Source: Acidobacteriota bacterium
GTDB lineage: Bacteria > Acidobacteriota > Terriglobia > 20CM-2-55-15
Length of the DNA: 34,505 bases
Direction of reading: 5' to 3'
Assembly (NCBI GenBank): GCA_023265365.1
Contig: JAHFTY010000014.1
Coordinates: 471-34,975 of the forward strand
Under the pieces are notes generated by a model. The model was not told the origin of the DNA and made no database searches. It saw nothing but the letters and a program-made list of their open reading frames with translations. Both the position numbers and the translations under genes were made by a program. Position 1 is the stretch's first letter. The number at the start of each line of letters is the position of its first letter. Shown one piece after another: positions 7,689-34,127 of the stretch.

Positions 7689-8303
7689 TCAACTTCCGGA
7701 GTATGGGAATTTGGGTTTCTCGATCTTTTGAAGCAGCGGCGCCGCCGCATCGACTTTTTTGCGTCCCCAGGCTGCGCCTTTTTTGCGGTCCAGCAGAAAA
7801 TCGGGTTCATAGTACCGCCTGTCGTACATCAGCGCTTTCTTGTATTGCTGAACGGCCTCTGTCGTCTTGCCGATGCCGAAGAGTCCCACGGCAATGCTGG
7901 CAAGAGCTTCCGGACTTTTGGAGTCCAACCGGACGCTGGCATTCCATTCGTCCAGAGCGCGCTCGGATTCGCCGCGATCGAAGAGAATGTTGCCGAGGTA
8001 CGCGCGCGCCATGGCGAAGTTCGCGTCGAGCGTCAGGCATTTCTGGAACTCTTTTTCCGCGGCGTCGAACTGGCCCACCCGGTACAGGTAGAGGCCCGAA
8101 TAGGCGTACGGGCCGGCAAGCCTGGGATCGAGGGCCTGCGCCTTCTTCGCGGATTCATACATCTTTTCAAAATTGTTGTTTCCCGCGCTCTTGATCGCGT
8201 TTTGAAGTTCCTTCTTTGCTTTCGCGGTCGATTTGGAGTCGGCGCTGAAGGCAGCGGCGGAACATGACAGAACAAGCAGGGTGATCCAGAACATTTTTTT
8301 CAT
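7689..8303 (-). CDS. Exported TPR protein
   Basis: 204 residues from the ATG at 8303, chosen for its signal peptide (MKKMFWITLLVLSCSAAAFS). The mature part holds about four TPR motifs: MYESAKKAQALDPRLAGPYA, QFDAAEKEFQKCLTLDANFA, ESERALDEWNASVRLDSKSP and KTTEAVQQYKKALMYDRRYY. It ends in a short basic/Pro segment. It is probably a periplasmic protein-protein adaptor for the adjacent protease. The ATG lies five bases after a TGA that ends the broken extension of the caspase frame. This spacing is typical within the operon and suggests the two genes were packed around a longer caspase protein. Confidence 0.82.
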   Translation of the reverse strand: MKKMFWITLLVLSCSAAAFSADSKSTAKAKKELQNAIKSAGNNNFEKMYESAKKAQALDPRLAGPYAYSGLYLYRVGQFDAAEKEFQKCLTLDANFAMARAYLGNILFDRGESERALDEWNASVRLDSKSPEALASIAVGLFGIGKTTEAVQQYKKALMYDRRYYEPDFLLDRKKGAAWGRKKVDAAAPLLQKIEKPKFPYSGS

Positions 8304-8308
8304 GGTGC

Positions 8309-8467
8309 TCACTGACTCGCTTTGACGAACAGGGGTTGGTTTTTGATCAAGCCGGGAACGGCGACGGGATTCTGCCGTCCCGACGTATCCCTGGCGACGT
8401 GCTCGCGGACAAAATCGCACACCTCGCCGGCGGTAATGATTCCGTCACGATTCACGTCGGACTGTCC
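8309..8467 (-). other. In-frame EF-hand extension of the caspase, separated by a TAG codon
   Basis: Directly after the TAG that ends the caspase frame (8468-8470), the same frame stays open for 52 codons to a TGA at 8309-8311. It encodes GQSDVNRDGIITAGEVCDFV and then VREHV, and later RQNPV. DVNRDGIITAGE (8423-8458) fits the canonical 12-residue EF-hand calcium loop at positions 1, 3, 5, 6, 8 and 12. Family knowledge: many exported bacterial caspase-like proteins continue after the FTYFLL strand with just such an EF-hand/dockerin-like tail. The stretch is therefore probably real protein sequence cut off by a recent nonsense change, a sequencing error, or a read-through stop. No independent start or ribosome site is evident. 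Confidence 0.75.
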
Positions 8468-9874
8468 CTACAGCGCCTGAAGCAGGAAATAGGTGAAAAC
8501 GCCATGGCCCGCCCCCCATTTCTCCGATTCTTCGGACAACTCGCCGATATCGCTCGCGGTGATGATCGCACGGCCGTCGGCGGAGGCGTATTTGTAGACA
8601 TACTGGTTGATCAGGTTTTTCTGATCCTCGGCCGCGCCGGCGCCGGCGCTGTGGCAGGCGTCGGCGAACGTGACGACGCGTTTCGTCTTGATTGTGCGTG
8701 CGAACAGATCGCGCATTTGCCACATCGGAAGCGCGGTGGCCGCCATGTTGGCGGGATCCGAATCGTGCGCCAGAAAATAGAGATCGTTCGGATTGTTGGG
8801 ATCGGGCGCTCCATGGCCGGCAAAGTAGATCACCACCTGATCGTTTTCCTTGCTCCGGGTCAGGAAGGTGAAAAGCGCCGTGCGCACGTTCAGGATCGTT
8901 GCGTCTTCGTCGAACAGCGTGATGACGTTGGTGGGCCGGAACTGGCCTCCCGCCTGGGAAAGCAAAAAGTCACGGAAAGCGGCGGCGTCCGCCCGCGCAT
9001 ATTGCAGGTTGGGAAAGCCGGGCCGCGCGTACCGGTAGCGCGAAACCCCGATCACGACCGCATATTTGTCGACCACGCCTTCGGTGAGTGGAACCGCTGC
9101 CGCACCCACCGGAACGATGACCGCCGCGCGGTTTCCGGCGCGGGTCTCCACTTCGACGCGCACTTCGGTTGCGCCTTCCGGAATGGAAACCTCCTGCCGA
9201 AACGGAAAGGCGTTCCCGGTCGCGCCTGGACTCACGGCGATACCGCGAGTTGTGGGGACGGCCGCGGCGGTTTCGTTTACCGATGAAAGTGGTCGTCCGG
9301 CGATGGAAAGCGTCCAGTCCCGGTCCCTGAAAACCACCACGCCTTCGAAAACGACGCGCCTGTCCTCTTTCGACAATGCGCCGGAAGGAGAAGCCAGTTT
9401 TATCTGTGGGAGGCCGGCCAGCGGATCCGTGGTCGACGTTTCGGTGCGGAGTTCCGAACCGGAGTTGCCTTCGGACCGGATGTCGACCAGAAACGTCGCA
9501 TATAAACGCCTTCCGTAGAAATCGACGGCGCTCGCTTCAACGGAGTTCCGGCCGGGTAACAGACGGAACCCGGCGCGAAGGTTCAAATCCAGCTCACACA
9601 GCATGCCGGTCGTTTCCGATTTCGTCGTCATGATGATGTTCGCGGATTCGCCATTCACCTTCAGCGCGACGCTGCCGTAGTTGATCTGCTGCGGCGTCCG
9701 GAGGACATGGACCTGCAGGCGGCTGACGAAACTGTGCGCGAGTTCGACGGAACGATTCTCGGCAACCCGGACATTGGCCTCCGAGATTTCGAGTTCAAAC
9801 GCAGCGCTGCGACGCTGCTGAGCAGCGTGGGATGCGCCGGCAAAAATCAGAAGGATGAGGGCGATTTGTTTCAT
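8468..9874 (-). CDS. Exported caspase-like (peptidase C14) protein, interrupted by in-frame TAG
   Basis: 468 residues to the TAG, or 521 if the TAG is read through. A signal peptide (1-18, KQIALILLIFAGASHA) is followed by two beta-rich regions (about 25-135 and 155-258) resembling immunoglobulin-like folds. The C14 caspase domain is about 265-468. The catalytic dyad is present: H354 in YFAGHGAPD and C407 in FADACHSAG. The end of the domain, GHGVFTYFLLQAL, matches the usual final strand. Such proteases cleave after basic or acidic residues, but the specificity here is unknown. The M48 protease is 50 bases upstream and a TPR gene is downstream. The TAG is one base from AAG, CAG or GAG, all plausible original codons. 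Confidence is high for the family and open for the true C-terminus. Confidence 0.92.
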   Translation of the reverse strand: MKQIALILLIFAGASHAAQQRRSAAFELEISEANVRVAENRSVELAHSFVSRLQVHVLRTPQQINYGSVALKVNGESANIIMTTKSETTGMLCELDLNLRAGFRLLPGRNSVEASAVDFYGRRLYATFLVDIRSEGNSGSELRTETSTTDPLAGLPQIKLASPSGALSKEDRRVVFEGVVVFRDRDWTLSIAGRPLSSVNETAAAVPTTRGIAVSPGATGNAFPFRQEVSIPEGATEVRVEVETRAGNRAAVIVPVGAAAVPLTEGVVDKYAVVIGVSRYRYARPGFPNLQYARADAAAFRDFLLSQAGGQFRPTNVITLFDEDATILNVRTALFTFLTRSKENDQVVIYFAGHGAPDPNNPNDLYFLAHDSDPANMAATALPMWQMRDLFARTIKTKRVVTFADACHSAGAGAAEDQKNLINQYVYKYASADGRAIITASDIGELSEESEKWGAGHGVFTYFLLQAL

Positions 9875-9924: not shown

Positions 9925-11448
9925 TTACGGCTTGGGCTGGCCGGGATTGGCCACGTTCACCACGCGCGGAACCATCCACGCGTTTTCTCCGCTCATCGAG
10001 AGATAGTCATAAATGATGTTCATGTTCTCCGGGAGCGCGCCCGCGTTGTTTCGCTGGTAGAGTTGCACGTAAGTCTTCAACTCTTTTTGAATGTCCGGAT
10101 ACAGCTTGGCGTCATTCTCCCGGATCATGGTCAGGGCCAGTTCGAGATGCGGATCCGCATAAAAGCCGCGTTCCGCGTCATATCGAATGGCCTGGAGCAT
10201 GTGGGATTGCGCCTTCTGTTTGTCTTCCGGGGTCCGGGCGGTCAGCCGGTAGACCTTCCCTAAATAGTATTGAGTCATCGGATCGGAAGACCGGATCGCT
10301 TCGGCCTGCTCGAAATTGGTCTTCGCCATTTCGAACAGATCGTAGTCGAGGGCGAGCACGCCGTTGTCGCGTTTCAGCGCGGCCATCAACAAAGCGAAGT
10401 TCGGAGACGAGCCGATCAGCGAGCCCTGCGACTTCTTCTGGACTTCCGCTTTCAGCGTTCCGTCGAGCACCGCCTGAACATGCTGTTTCCGGTCGGCGAT
10501 GTTGGCCTTGCTGCCATGGAAGCCGAAACCGGCGCGCGGATCTTTCGTCACGGTTTGTTCCATCGCGATAAGCAATTTCGGGGCTTCGCGAATGTCGTAG
10601 TTCTGTTCGAGAGCGGTCTTCAAGCCGAACTCATCGGCATCGGTCTCCTTCGCCTTGTCCCACGCCGTCGCTTTCGGCTTCGACGAGAACGAATGAACGA
10701 CCGAATAGCCGGCGAAAGCGCTGACCGCGGCAATCGTTCCGAAGTTCAATGCGCCGTTGGCGCCTCCGGCAATGCCGCCGGCGAGAGCTCCGACGCCTCC
10801 GGCGATGGCGCCGAAGATCGCGCCCTTCTTCTTTGCGGATCGTTCCTTGTCGATTTCAAGGGCATTCTCGAGGATGCTCCCGCGGACTTCTTCATAGAAG
10901 TGATTGTGTTCGATGTGGCCGATTTCGTGGCTCAGAACATAGGCCAGTTGCGCTTCGTTCTCGAGCGACGAGAGCATGCCCGTCGATATATAGACGCTGC
11001 CCGTGCTGAGCGCGAACGATTCGGGCCGCGGATCGTAGACGATTCGGAACGTATACAGGTTGACGGTGTCCTTGGGGACCAACGACTGTCCCAACTGGTT
11101 GACGTACTGCTGAAGAACGGGATTCTGGTAGATTCCATCGCGTCCCATCGTGGTGTTGAGCCGGTAGGCCTGGCTCTGATGTCCATGGCGCATCGATTCG
11201 TACATGTCATCGATGATCCGTTTGATTTCGGGTTTTTGACCGAGTTCCTGCATTTTCTCGATGTCTTTCGGCGAGAACTTGGGTTCCTTCGAATCCTTTT
11301 TGTCCTCAAGGACCGCCTGCCGCAGAGCCTCCATTTGTTTGGAGATATCGGCGTTGTCCACATCCTGTGCCATGGCCCGTATCTCGACACGGCCCAGAAC
11401 AAGAGGCAGAACGCATAAGAACACGAGCCACTTCACTGCACGCTTCAT
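9925..11448 (-). CDS. M48-family zinc metalloprotease with TPR-like C-terminus
   Basis: 507 residues from the ATG at 11448, five bases after a perfect AGGAGG. A signal peptide or N-terminal anchor spans residues 1-25. The zinc site HEIGH is at 174-178 and the probable third ligand is E268 in KETDADEFG, as in the BepA/Oma1/HtpX group. Between them lies a Gly/Ala-rich hydrophobic stretch (about 208-249) that may insert into or lie on the membrane. From about 340 to 440 the sequence is TPR-like (FEMAKTNFEQAEAIRSSDPM, YYLGKVYRLTARTPEDKQKA). This resembles BepA, a periplasmic protease with TPRs that acts on outer membrane proteins. First gene of the long envelope operon. Confidence 0.9.
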   Translation of the reverse strand: MKRAVKWLVFLCVLPLVLGRVEIRAMAQDVDNADISKQMEALRQAVLEDKKDSKEPKFSPKDIEKMQELGQKPEIKRIIDDMYESMRHGHQSQAYRLNTTMGRDGIYQNPVLQQYVNQLGQSLVPKDTVNLYTFRIVYDPRPESFALSTGSVYISTGMLSSLENEAQLAYVLSHEIGHIEHNHFYEEVRGSILENALEIDKERSAKKKGAIFGAIAGGVGALAGGIAGGANGALNFGTIAAVSAFAGYSVVHSFSSKPKATAWDKAKETDADEFGLKTALEQNYDIREAPKLLIAMEQTVTKDPRAGFGFHGSKANIADRKQHVQAVLDGTLKAEVQKKSQGSLIGSSPNFALLMAALKRDNGVLALDYDLFEMAKTNFEQAEAIRSSDPMTQYYLGKVYRLTARTPEDKQKAQSHMLQAIRYDAERGFYADPHLELALTMIRENDAKLYPDIQKELKTYVQLYQRNNAGALPENMNIIYDYLSMSGENAWMVPRVVNVANPGQPKP

Positions 11449-11611
11449 AGGTCCTCCTAAATCGTAAACGCATCCAGGGGCGATCATGTTGTCGGACGAT
11501 TATGGTGACCATCCATTCGTATGGGAAGTTATTACGCCTGCTAATTTCCGAAAAACTATGAAAGCGGAAAGCGTGTTCATCTTTCCTCGAAAGCCGGTTT
11601 GGACGCGGTTT

Positions 11612-11742: not shown

Positions 11743-12891
11743 TCAATCGAGGAAGACGGCTTCTTTCAGGCGGGCGGGAACGTACTCCTCGGTGACGTAG
11801 CTGATGTCTTTGCTGATCAGGGCTTCCACTTCGAGCTTGAAGCCGTTCCTGAGCATCAGTTCGATTTCCCTCTGCCACGGCTTCTTGTGGGCGAACCACG
11901 GATACTGCGCGATCTGCCGCGCGCGTTTGATGTCCTGCTCGTTCAGTTTGATTTGAACGCTGGGGCTGAGCTGGCATCGTTCGTAGTCGTTGCTGCGGAG
12001 GCCGAGGAACCGGGCTTCCGGAATGGCCATGCGCCGGGATTCGTACGCGAGGTTGATCGAGCCCTGTTTGATGACGCTGTAGATGTAGTATCCCCACGGA
12101 TCGTTGTCGAGCAGGCAGTACACCGGCAGCTTCAACTCGTAATGGAGCCGGTTCAGCATCCGGCGGACGCCGCGTGGAGGCTGGCCGCCGCCGTGCGTGA
12201 GGATGCAGTTGTGCTGGCGCCAGAATTTGTCTTCGTTGAAACGCCGCCAGACGGTGTCCTTTTCGACGTGAAGAACGAACGTGGCGGTGTTCTTTTTGAA
12301 CTGCACGATATCCTGCTCGACGATGGACGGGATGCTGTAGCCGCCCGATCCCATCCTCGAGCAATCGATCTCGTCGCCGCTGTCGACCAGCGTGATCGGC
12401 CCGACCATCGCTCCGGCGTTTTTGGCGTAGAGGTGGAGTTCTTCGCGCATCGAGTCCAGCGAGACCTCGACGTCCTCGATAATGGGATCGCATTCATCCT
12501 GGGTGTCGAAAGTCTCTTCGCTTGTTCCTTCGATCGTGTGCTTCAACAGATAGAACAGGCCGCGGATGCTGGTCGTCTTTCCCTGTTCGATGAGTTTTTT
12601 GCATCCCGAACCGACCAGCAGCGTCTGCATGTAGCTGCGCGCCTGCGCGAGGTTGAAGAGTTCCCGCCGGTTGGAGCCGCTCCCCATCTCGATGATCTTC
12701 CGGGACTGGTTGAATCTCACGTTCGACAACGACCGCGATGGAATCTCGACGTGCGGAGCGCGGCCGCTCTCGGCGGATTTCACGACGCCGTCCGCAAGGT
12801 CGCGGATGGAGCCGAGCGTTTTTTTGTCTTTCGCCGTCAGCGTTGCAGGCGCGGAAGAAGATGTCCTGGTCCGTTTAGTTTTCCTGGCCAT
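11743..12891 (-). CDS. top6A: DNA topoisomerase VI subunit A
   Basis: 382 residues, the usual length for the family. The cleavage subunit: Y114 in [13 protein letters not shown] is in the place of the catalytic tyrosine that forms the 5'-phosphotyrosyl link. The Toprim domain shows E210 ([11 protein letters not shown]) and the acidic pair D262/D264 ([12 protein letters not shown]), which bind magnesium. The protein works with subunit B as an A2B2 type IIB topoisomerase, relaxing and decatenating DNA. The ATG lies within the last 17 bases of the B gene, so translation is coupled. The first 20 residues are basic and Ser/Thr-rich. Identification is by motifs. Confidence 0.93.
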
Positions 12892-14875
12892 GGCCTTCCT
12901 GATTCACGATAAGAACGTTCTCGCCAAAGTCTTCGTCGCCGTCTTCGACTTTTTTGCCGCGCTCGTCCATTTTCGTATCGGCAACGGCCGTCTTGCGTTT
13001 CGCGACGTCGACGAGGCGGCCGTACAGCTCTTTCCGCGACCGATCGTCATAATCCCTGATCGACGCGACCGCCGTCGCCACCTCGCCCAGGTACCGGAGG
13101 AAAATCTCGCGGCGTTCTCCCTCCTGCCGGACCTTCTTGCGTTGATTGAGATACATGGACAGCTTGCGTCCCACCGCCTGAAGGCCGAGTCGAAGCTCTT
13201 TCAGGATTTCCGGATAGGGAGCGACGGCTTCCTTCGATTCGCTGGTGAAAGGGACCCATACGCTGGCCATGTGCACCATGAGCGTCAGAGGACCCGTCGG
13301 GAGTTGACCGCGGGATTGCGAAAGTCCGTAGGCGCGCCAGTTATTCGCGATCACGGATTGCGTGATGGCGCAGGCCGCCGGTTGGAACAGAAGAGGGACG
13401 CGATTCGCGTACCGCAGGACCTGCATGGACTGGCCTTCGGACAGGTTCACGTTTCGCATCGCGGCGTGGAGACGGACGATTTCTTCCCGGTCGAGTTTCG
13501 ACGGAGTCTGCCGGACGCCCATCCGGGCTTCCGAAAGGATCTTTTCGGCCCCGGCGGCCCCGATTCCATCGAAGGTCGTGAGCAGGAACTGCCGGAGGGA
13601 GCGCGCGTCGCTTTCCGCGAGCAGTTCCGTGAGCGCGTCCACCGAGACCTTTTGTGTGGGACTGGCCCCGCCAAAAGCCAGACCGACCTCGATCAGAAAC
13701 GGGTTGCCGCGGTACACCGAAGGGGGGCGCGTCGCCGCGCAGAAGAACTCTCCGGGCACCTGGTGGTGAAGTCCTTTCAGGATCAGCGGTTCTCCGATCG
13801 GCGAAATGCAGTCGGTCGACGGGGCGCTGATCTTCGTGACCTGAATGGCCTGGTACAAGGCGTCCGCTTCCTGACGGCCGATCCGCCGGGGATTGGCGCG
13901 GGTGCTGATTTTGGCCGTTGCGCAAATTTTCTGCGCGATGCCGGGGCTGACGCGCGAGAACGACGTGGTCAGAAACTGCGAGATCGATCCGGCCGGGTTG
14001 TCCTTCAACATCGTCACCAACTGCCCAAGCTCGATTCCATAGGGATGCGGCTTGATCTCCTGCGGCTCGGCGGGAAGCTGGGCGGTCGAACGCGAGCAGG
14101 TCGCCCTGTGACCCTCCGGATCGATGTAATGAATCGTGACGTGCGGGTTGGCAATCGCGGTCTGTTCCAGATACTCGTCCACGCTTCCGCGGCCGCGCTG
14201 ATAGCGGCCTTCCAACTCGATGGTGACTCGCGTGCCGCTTTTGACTTCGTCGCGGTGGTGCGACTCTTCGGCCGGCATCGGATAGTGCGAGACCCACTCG
14301 ATGCCGTGATCGGCGATGTATTGGTGACCTTTTTCTCCGGCCGGAATGTCTTCGCCGTCACCTTTGCCGTTGATGATTTCCGGCCGGTTCCGCTTCGTGT
14401 CGATCCGGATCTCGAAGTAATGCGCCGGCTTTCCTGGCGACGTCCTGGAGATGATTTTTACGGGTTTGCCCGTTGTGAGCATGCCGTACATGCCCGCGGC
14501 GCTGATGCCGATACCCTGCTGGCCGCGGCTCATCCGCAACCGGTGGAATTTCGAGCCGTAGAGGAGTTTCCCGAAGATCAACGGGATCTGTTTCTTCATG
14601 ATGCCGGGCCCGTTGTCCTGCACGCCAACCTTGTAGCGGTTGGTTCCCATCGTCTCGATGTGCACCCAAAGTTCCGGGACGATGCCGGCTTCTTCGCACG
14701 CGTCAAGCGAGTTGTCGACCGCCTCTTTGACGGCGGTCAACAGCGCCTTCCGGGGATTGTCGAATCCGAGAAGGTGGCGATTTTTCGCAAAGAACTCGCT
14801 GACGGAGATATCGCGTTGCTTCAGAGCCATCGACTCGGCGGTCGCGCGCTTTCGCGGTTGTTTGTGATCTTTCAT
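12875..14875 (-). CDS. top6B: DNA topoisomerase VI subunit B
   Basis: 666 residues. The N-terminal GHKL ATPase fold has an N-box ([18 protein letters not shown]51/N55), the D87-x-G-x-G motif ([10 protein letters not shown]) and the lid [15 protein letters not shown] (117-131), with [15 protein letters not shown] typical of Top6B. A helix-two-turn-helix-like middle and a transducer domain follow. The last roughly 60 residues are charged and acidic. ATP binding dimerises B and opens or closes the gate formed by subunit A. The gene is first in a two-gene operon with the A subunit and overlaps it by 17 bases. The start at 14875 has GGAAGG about nine bases upstream. Upstream are two dispersed elements. 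Confidence 0.95.
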
Positions 14876-15064: not shown

Positions 15065-15126
15065 AAAAGTCCTCGTCCCAACGTTTTTTCTCGCTTAGGG
15101 AATGTTGGATCCAAACCGACTTTTTG

Positions 15127-15204
15127 GGTGGCGCGAAGCGCCGGGGTGGTGCTTTCACGAAAACGATTTTGTTAAACGAACCGCCCCGCCGCTTCGCGGC
15201 ACCC
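15127..15204 (+). repeat. Dispersed composite element, copy C2 (both outer palindromes lost)
   Basis: Nearly identical to the centre of C1, 63 bases further right (GGGTGGCGCGAAGCGCCGGG, TTCACGAAAACGATTTTGTT, then the GAACGAACC-like and GCCGCTTCGCGGC parts), but cut on both sides exactly inside the outer palindromes. On its left is the CCAAACCGACTTTTTGGG block, also found near 1190. The remaining 15205-15250 forms the leader of the histidine kinase. I see no clear promoter in it. Confidence 0.88.
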
Positions 15205-18350: not shown

Positions 18351-20221
18351 GACCCAGCCGTCTATTCGTTCTGATCCCGTTGTTACTTTTCGTGGCCGTA
18401 CGGGCCGGCGCCCAAAGCAAGCCGGCCGCGTCCTCTCCTTCGGATCCGCGTGTCGGATTGAAGGCGGGCATCAAGGATGCGGCGGTGGCGGCCCGCAACA
18501 TGGAACTGGTCCGGAGTCTGCCGAAGCCCGAAGGATTCTTCGATCCGAAAAGCCCGCTCGGCAAACCGACGCCTCCGGAACCTCCTCCGGGAGCCGCCAA
18601 CAACAACACCCCTGCGGCCACAACGCCCGCGGCGCCGGCGCCGCCATCGGGGCTGGACTTTGCGAACTCGGATATTGCGTTCACGCATGATCACGCCATC
18701 ATGGGAAATTTCAACGGCTTCACGGCCTACGTCGTGGAAGATGCGTCCAAGGCGAGGATCGTGGCCCAGATCGTGTGTCCCGGCGGACAAGGCGACGTTT
18801 CGGTTCACGGCAATCTGCTGTTCATGTCGGTCGAGCAGACGCGGGGCCGGATCGACTGCGGCACTTCAGGCGTGACGGAAACGGTCAGCCCGGTTCGTTT
18901 CCGCGGCATTCGTATTTTCGACATCACCGATCTGAAGAAACCGAAACAGATCGCCGCCATTCAGACGTGCCGCGGATCGCACACGCACACGCTCGTGATG
19001 GACCCGAAGGACAAAGAGAATCTGTACGTTTACGGACAGGGAACCGGCGGCGTCCGTTCAGGCGAGGAATTGGCGGGATGCACCGACGGCAAAGACGATC
19101 CCAACACGGCTCTTTTCAGCATCGACGTGATTCAGGTCCCGATCGCCGCGCCCCAGAACGCGAAGGTCGTCAACCGTCCGCGCATCTTCGCCGACGAAAA
19201 GACCGGCGCCCTCTCCGGACTCTGGAAGGGCGGTAATTACGGTCCGGGCACTCAGAGTTCGCGCGAGACCAACCAGTGCCACGACATCACCGTGTTTCCC
19301 GAAGTCGGACTCGCCGCCGGCGCGTGTTCGGGGAACGGCATCCTGATCGATATTTCCGATCCGGTTCATCCCAAACGGCTGGATGCCGTGGGCGACAAGA
19401 ACTTTGCCTACTGGCACTCCGCCACCTTTAATAATGATGGAACGAAGGTCATCTTTACCGACGAATGGGGCGGCGGCACTCGTCCGCGCTGCCGGGCCGC
19501 CGATCCGATCGACTGGGGGGGAGACGCGATTTTCGAAATCGCGGACAACAAACTGAAGTTTCAGGGCTACTACAAGATGCCGGCGCCCCAGACCGAGCAG
19601 GAGAACTGCGTCGCCCATAACGGATCGCTGATCCCGGTGCCGGGCCGGGACATCATGGTTCAGGCCTGGTATCAGGGTGGATTGTCCGTTTTCGACTTCA
19701 CCGATGCCGCCCGCCCGGTCGAGATCGCGTTCTTCGATCGCGGCCCGCTCGACGCGAAAGACCTGTACACCGGCGGGTACTGGTCCACGTACTGGTATAA
19801 CGGCCACATCTACGGATCCGAAATTGCCCGCGGCCTCGACGTGTTCAAGCTGAAACCCAGCGAGTTCCTGTCCCAGTACGAGATCGAGGCCGCACAATCC
19901 GTCCAGTTCAACGAATTCAATGTCCAGATGCAGCAGAAATATGTCTGGCCGGCGAACTCCGCGGTGGCGCGCGCCTACATCGACCAACTGAATCGCAGCA
20001 AAGCGATTCAGCCGGAACGGGCCAAAGCCGTCGCCGACGCGATGGTGAAAGCGGACAAACTCCGGTCGGGAAAGGACAAGGCGGCGCCGGCCCTGGTGGC
20101 GGAGTTGGACAAGCTGGCGGTGCAGGTCGAAAGTGATGCTTCCGCTGCCTCCGGCCGCGATGCGGACCGGTTGAAAGCCCTGGCGGGGGTCCTCAAGGAG
20201 CGTTCCTCGAAGTTGAAATAG
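18347..20221 (+). CDS. Exported LVIVD-repeat beta-propeller-like protein
   Basis: 624 residues. A signal peptide (MRPSRLFVLIPLLLFVAVRA) precedes a Pro/Ala-rich linker (about 70-102). The central region (about 105-510) is made of repeated beta-blade-like units with the LVIVD-type pattern: GIRIFDITDLKKPKQIAAIQ, GNGILIDISDPVHPKRLDAV, GGLSVFDFTDAARPVEIAFF and GLDVFKL. HTHTLVMDPKDKENLYVYG is a notable histidine-bearing segment. The last roughly 110 residues are helical. The function is unknown; such propellers are usually exported binding or oxidoreductase-like proteins. It overlaps the DUF305 gene by four bases. The operon order DUF305-LVIVD suggests a joint extracytoplasmic role. Confidence 0.85.
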   Translation: MRPSRLFVLIPLLLFVAVRAGAQSKPAASSPSDPRVGLKAGIKDAAVAARNMELVRSLPKPEGFFDPKSPLGKPTPPEPPPGAANNNTPAATTPAAPAPPSGLDFANSDIAFTHDHAIMGNFNGFTAYVVEDASKARIVAQIVCPGGQGDVSVHGNLLFMSVEQTRGRIDCGTSGVTETVSPVRFRGIRIFDITDLKKPKQIAAIQTCRGSHTHTLVMDPKDKENLYVYGQGTGGVRSGEELAGCTDGKDDPNTALFSIDVIQVPIAAPQNAKVVNRPRIFADEKTGALSGLWKGGNYGPGTQSSRETNQCHDITVFPEVGLAAGACSGNGILIDISDPVHPKRLDAVGDKNFAYWHSATFNNDGTKVIFTDEWGGGTRPRCRAADPIDWGGDAIFEIADNKLKFQGYYKMPAPQTEQENCVAHNGSLIPVPGRDIMVQAWYQGGLSVFDFTDAARPVEIAFFDRGPLDAKDLYTGGYWSTYWYNGHIYGSEIARGLDVFKLKPSEFLSQYEIEAAQSVQFNEFNVQMQQKYVWPANSAVARAYIDQLNRSKAIQPERAKAVADAMVKADKLRSGKDKAAPALVAELDKLAVQVESDASAASGRDADRLKALAGVLKERSSKLK

Positions 20222-20282: not shown

Positions 20283-20390
20283 CCCCTCCTCGACGAGGAG
20301 GGGTGGCGCGAAGCGCCGGGGTGGTGCTTTCACGAAAACGATTTTGTTGAACGAACCGCCCCGCCGCTTCGCGGCACCCCGCCTTGGCCA
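20283..20390 (+). repeat. Dispersed composite palindromic element, copy D (right palindrome cut)
   Basis: It is identical in order to C1 from the CCCCTCCTC/GAGGAGGGG palindrome (20283-20303) to CCCCGCCTTGGCCA (20377-20390). There the match stops in the middle of the right palindrome and different sequence begins. The left flank GCGAAACCGAGGAAAAGCAG also matches other copies. The break coincides with the left side of the lower-GC metal and arsenic module and may be its insertion junction. Confidence 0.88.
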
Positions 20391-20450
20391 TCCGCAGCCC
20401 CTCGGTTCGCAGCGGATGAATCGGAAATAATGCGTGAAGGAGGAGTGCCG

Positions 20451-32500: not shown

Positions 32501-33955
32501 ATGAATACTAATGACAAGTCTTCCCATTCGCCGCTCCGGGATTTCCTGGAGATTCCATACGACCAACTCGAGGAGATGAACCTCGAAGTCAAGGCTGAGC
32601 GTGAGTCCAACGCCGATGCGGGACAGATCCGTGAAAAGCGCCTCAAGTACCTGCGCGATGAAAAGCGTCTTAAAGCGGTCACGGTTTGCTTCACCGATCT
32701 TGAAGGCCGGCTGCACATGCTCGACTATGACAAGAAGTTCCTCCTGGGTTCGGCCGACAACCTGACATTTGACGGTTCCTCCATTCGCGGATTCACCGCG
32801 CAGCAGGAATCGGATCTTCGACTTGCGATCGACTGGCCGGCTTTTTACTGGCTGCCCTCCGACGTTTTCGGGCCCGGCAAAGTGCTTGTCTTTAGTGAAG
32901 TCCTCGATCGCGACGGCACGCCCTACGCTGCCGACATGCGCGCCATTCTGAAACGATACACCGAGGGCCTCTATGCCAGGGACGGGACCGTCTGCAACGC
33001 TGCCAACGAAATCGAAGGCTTCCTGTTCAAGGGCCGCGATGCCGAACGCCGCTATTACGAAACGAACAAATTCGAATTCATCTCCACCGGCGGCTATTAC
33101 CACTCCCTTCCCGGCGACACGCTTCGCCAGTTCATCGACGCGGCGGCGGAAGTCCAGCGGGCCATGGGTTTCAAGAACGAAAAAGACCATCCGGAAGTGG
33201 CGCCATCGCAGTTCGAAATGAACTACTCCTACACGAACGCCCTCATCGGCGCCGACCAGATCCAGCTCTACAAGCTGCTCTGCCGGCAGGTGGCCCAGCG
33301 TTTCGACATGACCGCATCCTTCCTGCCGAAGCCCGTCACGGGCGTGAACGGCAACGGGATGCATACCAACATGTCGATTTCAAACAAGGGGAAGAACGCC
33401 TTCTATGACGAGAAGGGCGAAGACATGCTGTCCGCGTCAGGATGGGATTTCATTCAGCGTATTCTGTCCAGCGCGAACGACATCTGTCTCATCCTGAATG
33501 CCAGCGTCAACGCCTACCGGCGCCTCGATCCGCACTTCGAAGCGCCGAATCAGATCAAGGCATCGGCCATCGACCGGGGATCCATGGTGCGCATTCCGCT
33601 CGGCAACCACCGCAGCAAGCGTGTCGAAGTCCGTTCGGTGGGGCCGGACGCGAATCCATACATGGCGATTTACGCGATGTTCAAGACCGGTCTCGAGGGT
33701 CCGGCCGCCGCCAGGGCCGCCGGCAAAGGCGAGTCCCTCGGCGACCTGCCGGATAACATTTACGATGCCATCGACAACTTCAGGTCCAGCGAGTATGCCA
33801 GGAAACTTCTCGGCGAAGATGTCCGCAACAAGTATGCGGACCTGAAACTCGGTTCGGCGGATCGTTGCCCGAAGGCGCTCGGCACCTTCATCAAACCTTC
33901 GGAAATTCAGTTCCATCACGAAGTCACCAACCAGTTCCTCTGGAATCAGTTCTGA
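32501..33955 (+). CDS. glnA: Glutamine synthetase (type I-like)
   Basis: 484 residues from the ATG at 32501. The frame is open upstream but that part does not look coding, and no clear ribosome site precedes the ATG. N-terminal beta-grasp domain with FDGSSIRGFTAQQESDLRL, then the catalytic domain: EIEGFLF (metal glutamate), PEVAPSQFEMNYSY, NGNGMHTNMS (active-site His), NAYRRLDPHFEAPNQIKASA and RGSMVRIPLGN (substrate arginines), VEVRSVGPDANPY. It ligates ammonia to glutamate with ATP. An N-terminal extension of about 45 residues is helical. The NLYDLP tyrosine motif that is adenylylated in enteric GS is not seen, which suggests a different regulation. No PII or adenylyltransferase gene is adjacent. 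Confidence 0.9.
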   Translation: MNTNDKSSHSPLRDFLEIPYDQLEEMNLEVKAERESNADAGQIREKRLKYLRDEKRLKAVTVCFTDLEGRLHMLDYDKKFLLGSADNLTFDGSSIRGFTAQQESDLRLAIDWPAFYWLPSDVFGPGKVLVFSEVLDRDGTPYAADMRAILKRYTEGLYARDGTVCNAANEIEGFLFKGRDAERRYYETNKFEFISTGGYYHSLPGDTLRQFIDAAAEVQRAMGFKNEKDHPEVAPSQFEMNYSYTNALIGADQIQLYKLLCRQVAQRFDMTASFLPKPVTGVNGNGMHTNMSISNKGKNAFYDEKGEDMLSASGWDFIQRILSSANDICLILNASVNAYRRLDPHFEAPNQIKASAIDRGSMVRIPLGNHRSKRVEVRSVGPDANPYMAIYAMFKTGLEGPAAARAAGKGESLGDLPDNIYDAIDNFRSSEYARKLLGEDVRNKYADLKLGSADRCPKALGTFIKPSEIQFHHEVTNQFLWNQF

Positions 33956-34010
33956 GAACGGACCGCTTATGCTGCTGTCCCCATAGGGCGAAATCGAGGC
34001 AAGGCGTTTT

Positions 34011-34127
34011 CCCCTCCTCGACGAGGAGGGGTGGCGCGAAGCGCCGGGGTGGTGCTGTTCAAGAAATGGATTTTGTTGAACGAACCGCCCCGCCGCTCGG
34101 CGGCACCCCGCCTTGGCCAAGGCGGGG
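34011..34127 (+). repeat. Dispersed composite palindromic element, copy E (complete)
   Basis: Both outer palindromes are intact (CCCCTCCTC/GAGGAGGGG, 34011-34031; CCCCGCCTT/AAGGCGGGG, 34106-34127). The centre differs slightly from C1 (GTTCAAGAAATGGATTTTG) and one hairpin has lost a base (GCCGCTCGGCGGC). The conserved flanks GCGAAATCGAGGCAAGGCG and GGGGAAAAGCCTTCGTCC are present. It lies between the converging glutamine synthetase and RapA-like genes and, with its strong hairpins, may help end both transcripts. I see nothing else in the gap 33956-34198. Confidence 0.92.

Follow-up and report, generated by a model that had tools for sequence, protein, structure and literature searches.

Prokaryotic caspase homologues of peptidase family C14 carry a caspase domain with a His-Cys dyad, and the same domain is found in an open reading frame (ORF) of an acidobacterial draft genome, for which NF047832 (Caspase, EACC1-associated) is the nearest NCBIfam model. 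Unlike the family, this ORF lacks the EF-hand part of the domain, owing to an in-frame TAG. Among the nonsense-interrupted bacterial genes surveyed in PMC7918605, to which the gene described here can also be compared, a lone in-frame TAG is likewise found in an otherwise conserved, in-frame gene; the present stop differs in that it is found in no second species. A full-length homologue is encoded in the Acidobacteriota MAG PL23a_bin.88 (L060/L209, JANQFM010000776.1), with 46-49% identity over its full length. It shares the gene order M48-caspase-TPR, but has a sense codon at the corresponding site, an intact EF-hand tail and a stop codon overlapping the TPR start.

The window, by which we mean the whole stretch of 34,505 nucleotides that was analyzed, lies within contig 338 of a draft genome, apparently a MAG, with a total of 4.72 Mb in 362 contigs. 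Direct reading of the minus strand gives a caspase-like ORF of 468 codons running from the ATG at 9874 to the TAG, at the position where an earlier note, made from the sequence alone, had placed it. The features of the locus are as follows.

9925..11487, minus strand: M48 metalloprotease (BepA-like), upstream gene (PF01435, 3.4e-17; NF052400 below cut-off)
8468..9874, minus strand: caspase-like protease (C14 domain), truncated ORF of 468 aa (PF00656, 8.4e-12; NF047832, 2.2e-26)
8468..8470, minus strand: in-frame TAG, a sense codon in homologues
8312..8467, minus strand: 52 open codons after the TAG, remainder of the caspase domain, untranslated unless read through
8423..8458, minus strand: EF-hand loop DVNRDGIITAGE, residues 473-484 of the read-through frame (weak EF-hand_1 match)
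8309..8311, minus strand: TGA closing the caspase tail, 5 nt ahead of the next ATG
7689..8303, minus strand: TPR protein of 204 aa, next gene in the run

The tail following the TAG reads GQSDVNRDGIITAGEVCDFVREHVARDTSGRQNPVAVPGLIKNQPLFVKASQ, and direct reading leaves a gap of 5 nt (8304-8308) between its TGA and the ATG of the TPR gene at 8301-8303. The 52 open codons, the canonical EF-hand loop, the motifs VREHV and RQNPV and the stop five bases before the next gene are thus all as the earlier note had described them, with every coordinate correct. Separate translation of the tail was considered and rejected: the sole in-frame start codons are GTG 474, GTG 485, TTG 509 and CTG 515, none of which yields the whole EF-hand. 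The gene is present in one copy with this architecture in its own genome, where the two other matches are distant (27-32% identity).

Identity and fold of the caspase-like protein

Both the truncated ORF and the read-through frame pass the cut-off of the Peptidase_C14 model (PF00656, 21.4 bits), with 45.7 and 55.8 bits, respectively. The annotated ORF leaves the C-terminal part of the model incomplete, stopping at position 191 of 233, while the read-through frame covers positions 2-223 and gains 10 bits. Neither form reaches the 140-bit cut-off of NF047832 (92.7 bits truncated, 104 read through), of which the truncated ORF covers the part up to position 184 and the read-through frame positions 2-210 of 211. 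The catalytic residues His354 (in AGHG) and Cys407 (in DACHS) are present, and are invariant in the alignment of 34 homologues.

The AlphaFold model of the protein shows two predicted beta-sandwich domains followed by a caspase fold from about residue 268, and the N-terminus resembles, by eye, a Sec signal peptide. Among solved structures, the closest folds are those of the MALT1 paracaspase (3v4o, 1.6e-12), GSU0716 and metacaspases, and the best sequence match in the PDB is metacaspase-4 (3.2e-07). At about 20% identity, the match to the MALT1 paracaspase and the metacaspases, the best of these folds, is a likeness of fold only, and membership of either group is not claimed. The PADLOC caspase model also matches the protein (7.7e-17), with no other defence-system gene among the four neighbouring genes scanned.

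Conservation of the tail beyond the stop

Homologues were collected from relatives, the class, the phylum and named genome contigs, resulting in 139 distinct sequences from many phyla, none of them from the same genus. Neither an order search (11 genomes) nor a single-protein scan of the genome contigs revealed close orthologues, the genus having no other genome; an alignment-based scan of the contigs added 80 more distant homologues. In none of the 139 is there a stop at the TAG site or within the next 20 codons. The residue at the site is K in 40, E in 23, R in 22, N in 20, S and Q in 12 each, G in 5, H and D in 2 each and M in 1; this set includes L265, which is frameshifted just before the site, with no stop there and the tail in another frame. 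The earlier note had held that in relatives the frame normally runs on into a tail that binds calcium, and had looked to orthologues for a sense codon here; the homologues agree on both points, and the first was, if anything, understated.

In the alignment, the C-termini of the homologues match the tail position by position. Of the 27 invariant columns of the 34-protein alignment, six fall in the tail (D473, E484, V493, T497, Q501 and P503) and 21 in the rest of the protein. D473 and E484 correspond to positions 1 and 12 of the EF-hand loop, in which D1, N3, D5, G6, I8 and E12 are all in place, and with them the ligand positions 1, 3, 5 and 12. The remaining ligand positions are near-fixed among homologues as well, position 3 being N or D and position 5 being D in 32 of 33 sequences, while position 6 is not confined to G. 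The match to the Pfam model EF-hand_1 (14.4 bits, E=0.027) remains under the cut-off of 25.4. Since reading through extends the family matches to position 223 of 233 in PF00656 and 210 of 211 in NF047832, the EF-hand-like segment looks like the end of the caspase domain, an integral part of it rather than an optional sensor. Given the putative Sec signal peptide, the predicted site for calcium would be exposed to the periplasm or to the exterior and would probably be structural.

Comparison of the tail with the core of the protein provides no sign of relaxed conservation. In a regression of tail identity on core identity over pairs of intact homologues, the window protein has a residual of -0.026, against per-protein means from -0.084 to +0.069, placing its tail identity within the range of intact homologues. 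The tail scores as coding, with a position-specific GC that agrees with the rest of the gene. Neutral simulations, judged on stops, indels and the six invariant tail residues, indicate that less than about 0.07-0.1 neutral substitutions per site have accumulated since the stop appeared; the stop is thus recent in rough terms and not tightly dated. Regression and simulation both uphold the view of the earlier note that the tail has suffered neither frameshift nor decay. With a sense codon in relatives and an undecayed tail, the change is therefore either recent or an error, two of the three options that the note had offered.

Gene neighbourhood and predicted effect of the truncation

The M48 gene adjoins the caspase gene, in co-directional or divergent orientation, in 18 of 20 Acidobacteriota-type loci (L209-L220, L229, L238, L251, L254, L257, L261 and L262), the exceptions being L213, where a contig end cuts the locus, and L253. 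No M48 gene was seen beside the caspase homologues of other phyla in the neighbourhood set examined, and a literature search on the pair returned nothing useful. M48 and caspase genes are a conserved protease pair in Acidobacteriota. G553/L109 also has the TPR neighbour, and there the stop of an intact caspase gene and the TPR start overlap. As the order M48-caspase-TPR is kept in G553 along with this overlap between stop and start, the ancestral caspase gene ended at 8309. The genes neighbouring the caspase gene look intact, so that there is no sign of decay of the pathway as a whole.

Three further observations concern the surroundings of these loci. Subunits A and B of DNA topoisomerase VI, an enzyme known best from archaea and eukaryotes, are encoded by adjacent genes at 11743-14875 on the minus strand. 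One contig labelled Rhodanobacteraceae (L215, CAJCHN010000141.1) shows the M48-caspase arrangement of Acidobacteriota, with 50% identity, and is possibly from a mislabelled bin. A G+C-rich repeat of the form PPRRFAAPRLGQGGE / AKAGCREAAGRFV occurs repeatedly in the window, both in intergenic stretches and within genes, as an interspersed repeat family, for example around 900-1300, 15100-15200, 20300-20400 and 33900-34100.

Translation halting at the TAG would produce a protein without the final EF-hand loop, the helix that follows it and the last strand of the caspase domain. We predicted the structure with and without the tail using the same homologues. Block means of the confidence for residues 441-468 fall from 76/90/96 with the tail to 44/51/78 without it, and the pTM falls from 0.60 to 0.50 for the 468-aa form. 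AlphaFold confidence does not measure stability, and it may be depressed for technical reasons when the query is shortened; because of this, the drop hints only faintly at impaired folding of the 468-aa form. Given a tail that is almost universal among homologues, with invariant calcium ligands, the truncated protease is probably unstable or poorly active, as judged from conservation and model, although it might keep some activity, His and Cys being untouched. The distance from the caspase stop to the TPR start is now 164 nt, compared to 5 nt for the TGA of the tail, and this gap may have weakened translational coupling to the TPR gene.

Alternatively, the loss of the tail could be adaptive or neutral, with the 468-aa form working as a protease independent of calcium. 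The catalytic His354 and Cys407 and the entire p20-like core are indeed intact in the short form. However, the tail is missing in no other homologue of the 139, it is included in both family models, and the truncated model is less confident precisely beside the cut. We consider such a functional short form extremely improbable.

Origin of the stop

To place the stop in the context of codon usage in the same genome, we surveyed 1.12 Mb of sampled stretches with 701 scored ORFs. TAG terminates 169 of them, and an in-frame coding continuation follows TAG in 10 of 169 cases, TGA in 12 of 322 and TAA in 12 of 210. Most of the continuations inspected are simply the next gene, as for ruvA, which ends in TAG ahead of ruvB; in another, an rpsF-like gene is followed by an S18-like gene (names assigned by reading the translations). 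TAG is also an ordinary stop at 20219 and 22753 in the window, where the earlier note had read it as such. Genome-wide reassignment of TAG was therefore rejected, as the codon ends genuine genes and coding continuation is no commoner after it than after TAA. PylS was likewise rejected, the best matches in the genome reaching 21.4 bits against a cut-off of 178.15, which one control genome passes. A tRNA with a CTA anticodon is absent from the 38 tRNA genes found; this is suggestive only, since several ordinary tRNAs, among them those for Phe, Asn and Ile, are also missing from the draft.

Two further homologues, in other MAGs, are broken as well. The caspase gene of L289 (G227:C133:8000-13500) is interrupted by a pair of in-frame TAGs, of which one falls in the EF-hand tail region, and its upstream sequence looks shifted. 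It is followed by a long stretch of open TPR sequence and is probably a pseudogene, or else sequence of poor quality. In L265 (CP070673.1), the reading frame shifts at a stretch of A immediately ahead of the EF-hand tail, probably through a long-read homopolymer error. A match with an inner TAA in G019 could not be traced to a broken gene, and the frame inspected there (L290) is open. Three broken genes among some 140-150 would be as expected from sporadic pseudogenes and draft-genome errors.

The intact frame and sequence of the tail are just what would be left by a single-base error in the consensus or assembly of the MAG, including the case of a minority strain allele, in which case the living population would carry an intact gene. 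The fragmented state of the 362-contig, 4.72-Mb draft is compatible with such an error, and the frameshift in the A run of L265 is typical of long-read error; a literature search on stop errors in draft genomes returned nothing useful. On the other hand, contamination is 0.22%, and the 1.12-Mb scan revealed no clear second gene with a lone stop and coding sequence beyond it, although one or two cases were ambiguous. The assembly thus shows no visible abundance of errors. An error is the second most likely explanation, a possibility to be taken seriously, but we doubt that it is the right one. The undecayed tail would also fit readthrough of the stop, by chance or under regulation, with two products, a short protease and a full-length one that binds calcium. 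The base directly after the TAG is a G, in a context that is G-rich just downstream; such a context increased readthrough in a study with E. coli reporters (PMC11126739) and, by that analogy, would favour some basal readthrough. In-frame stops common to several bacterial species have been reported, with readthrough suggested (PMC7918605), although the authors assumed that the majority of the detected events are not functional recoding. Neither study supports readthrough specifically in the window gene.

Against readthrough stand the genuine gene ends marked by TAG, the incomplete tRNA set without a CTA anticodon, PylS scores under the cut-off, and a stop common to none of the 139 homologues. 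The RNA after the stop has no stimulating structure either (z = -0.18 versus shuffles). Readthrough of any kind is thus quite improbable, regulated readthrough is unlikely, and suppression of the TAG at a useful rate, yielding short and long proteases that differ in the EF-hand-bearing end of the caspase domain, is hardly to be expected. The second, calcium-sensing form of the protease, the remaining option of the earlier note, is not supported by these results, the tail moreover being apparently integral to the domain. The reading that we favour, and judge probable, is a recent nonsense mutation in the gene of a putatively exported C14 protease, resulting in a truncated and probably impaired enzyme. 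The mutation would be a single-base change, recent on an evolutionary time scale and present in the sequenced population, and it would have made the caspase gene either a pseudogene of very recent date or an allele attenuated by nature.

By itself, the truncation of one gene in a single draft genome carries little weight. If readthrough were true, the gene would be a rare example among bacterial proteases of two forms determined at translation. A useful by-product of the comparison is the EF-hand-like end that is near-invariant in prokaryotic caspase domains across phyla, the role of which in calcium binding and folding becomes a clear question for the bench.
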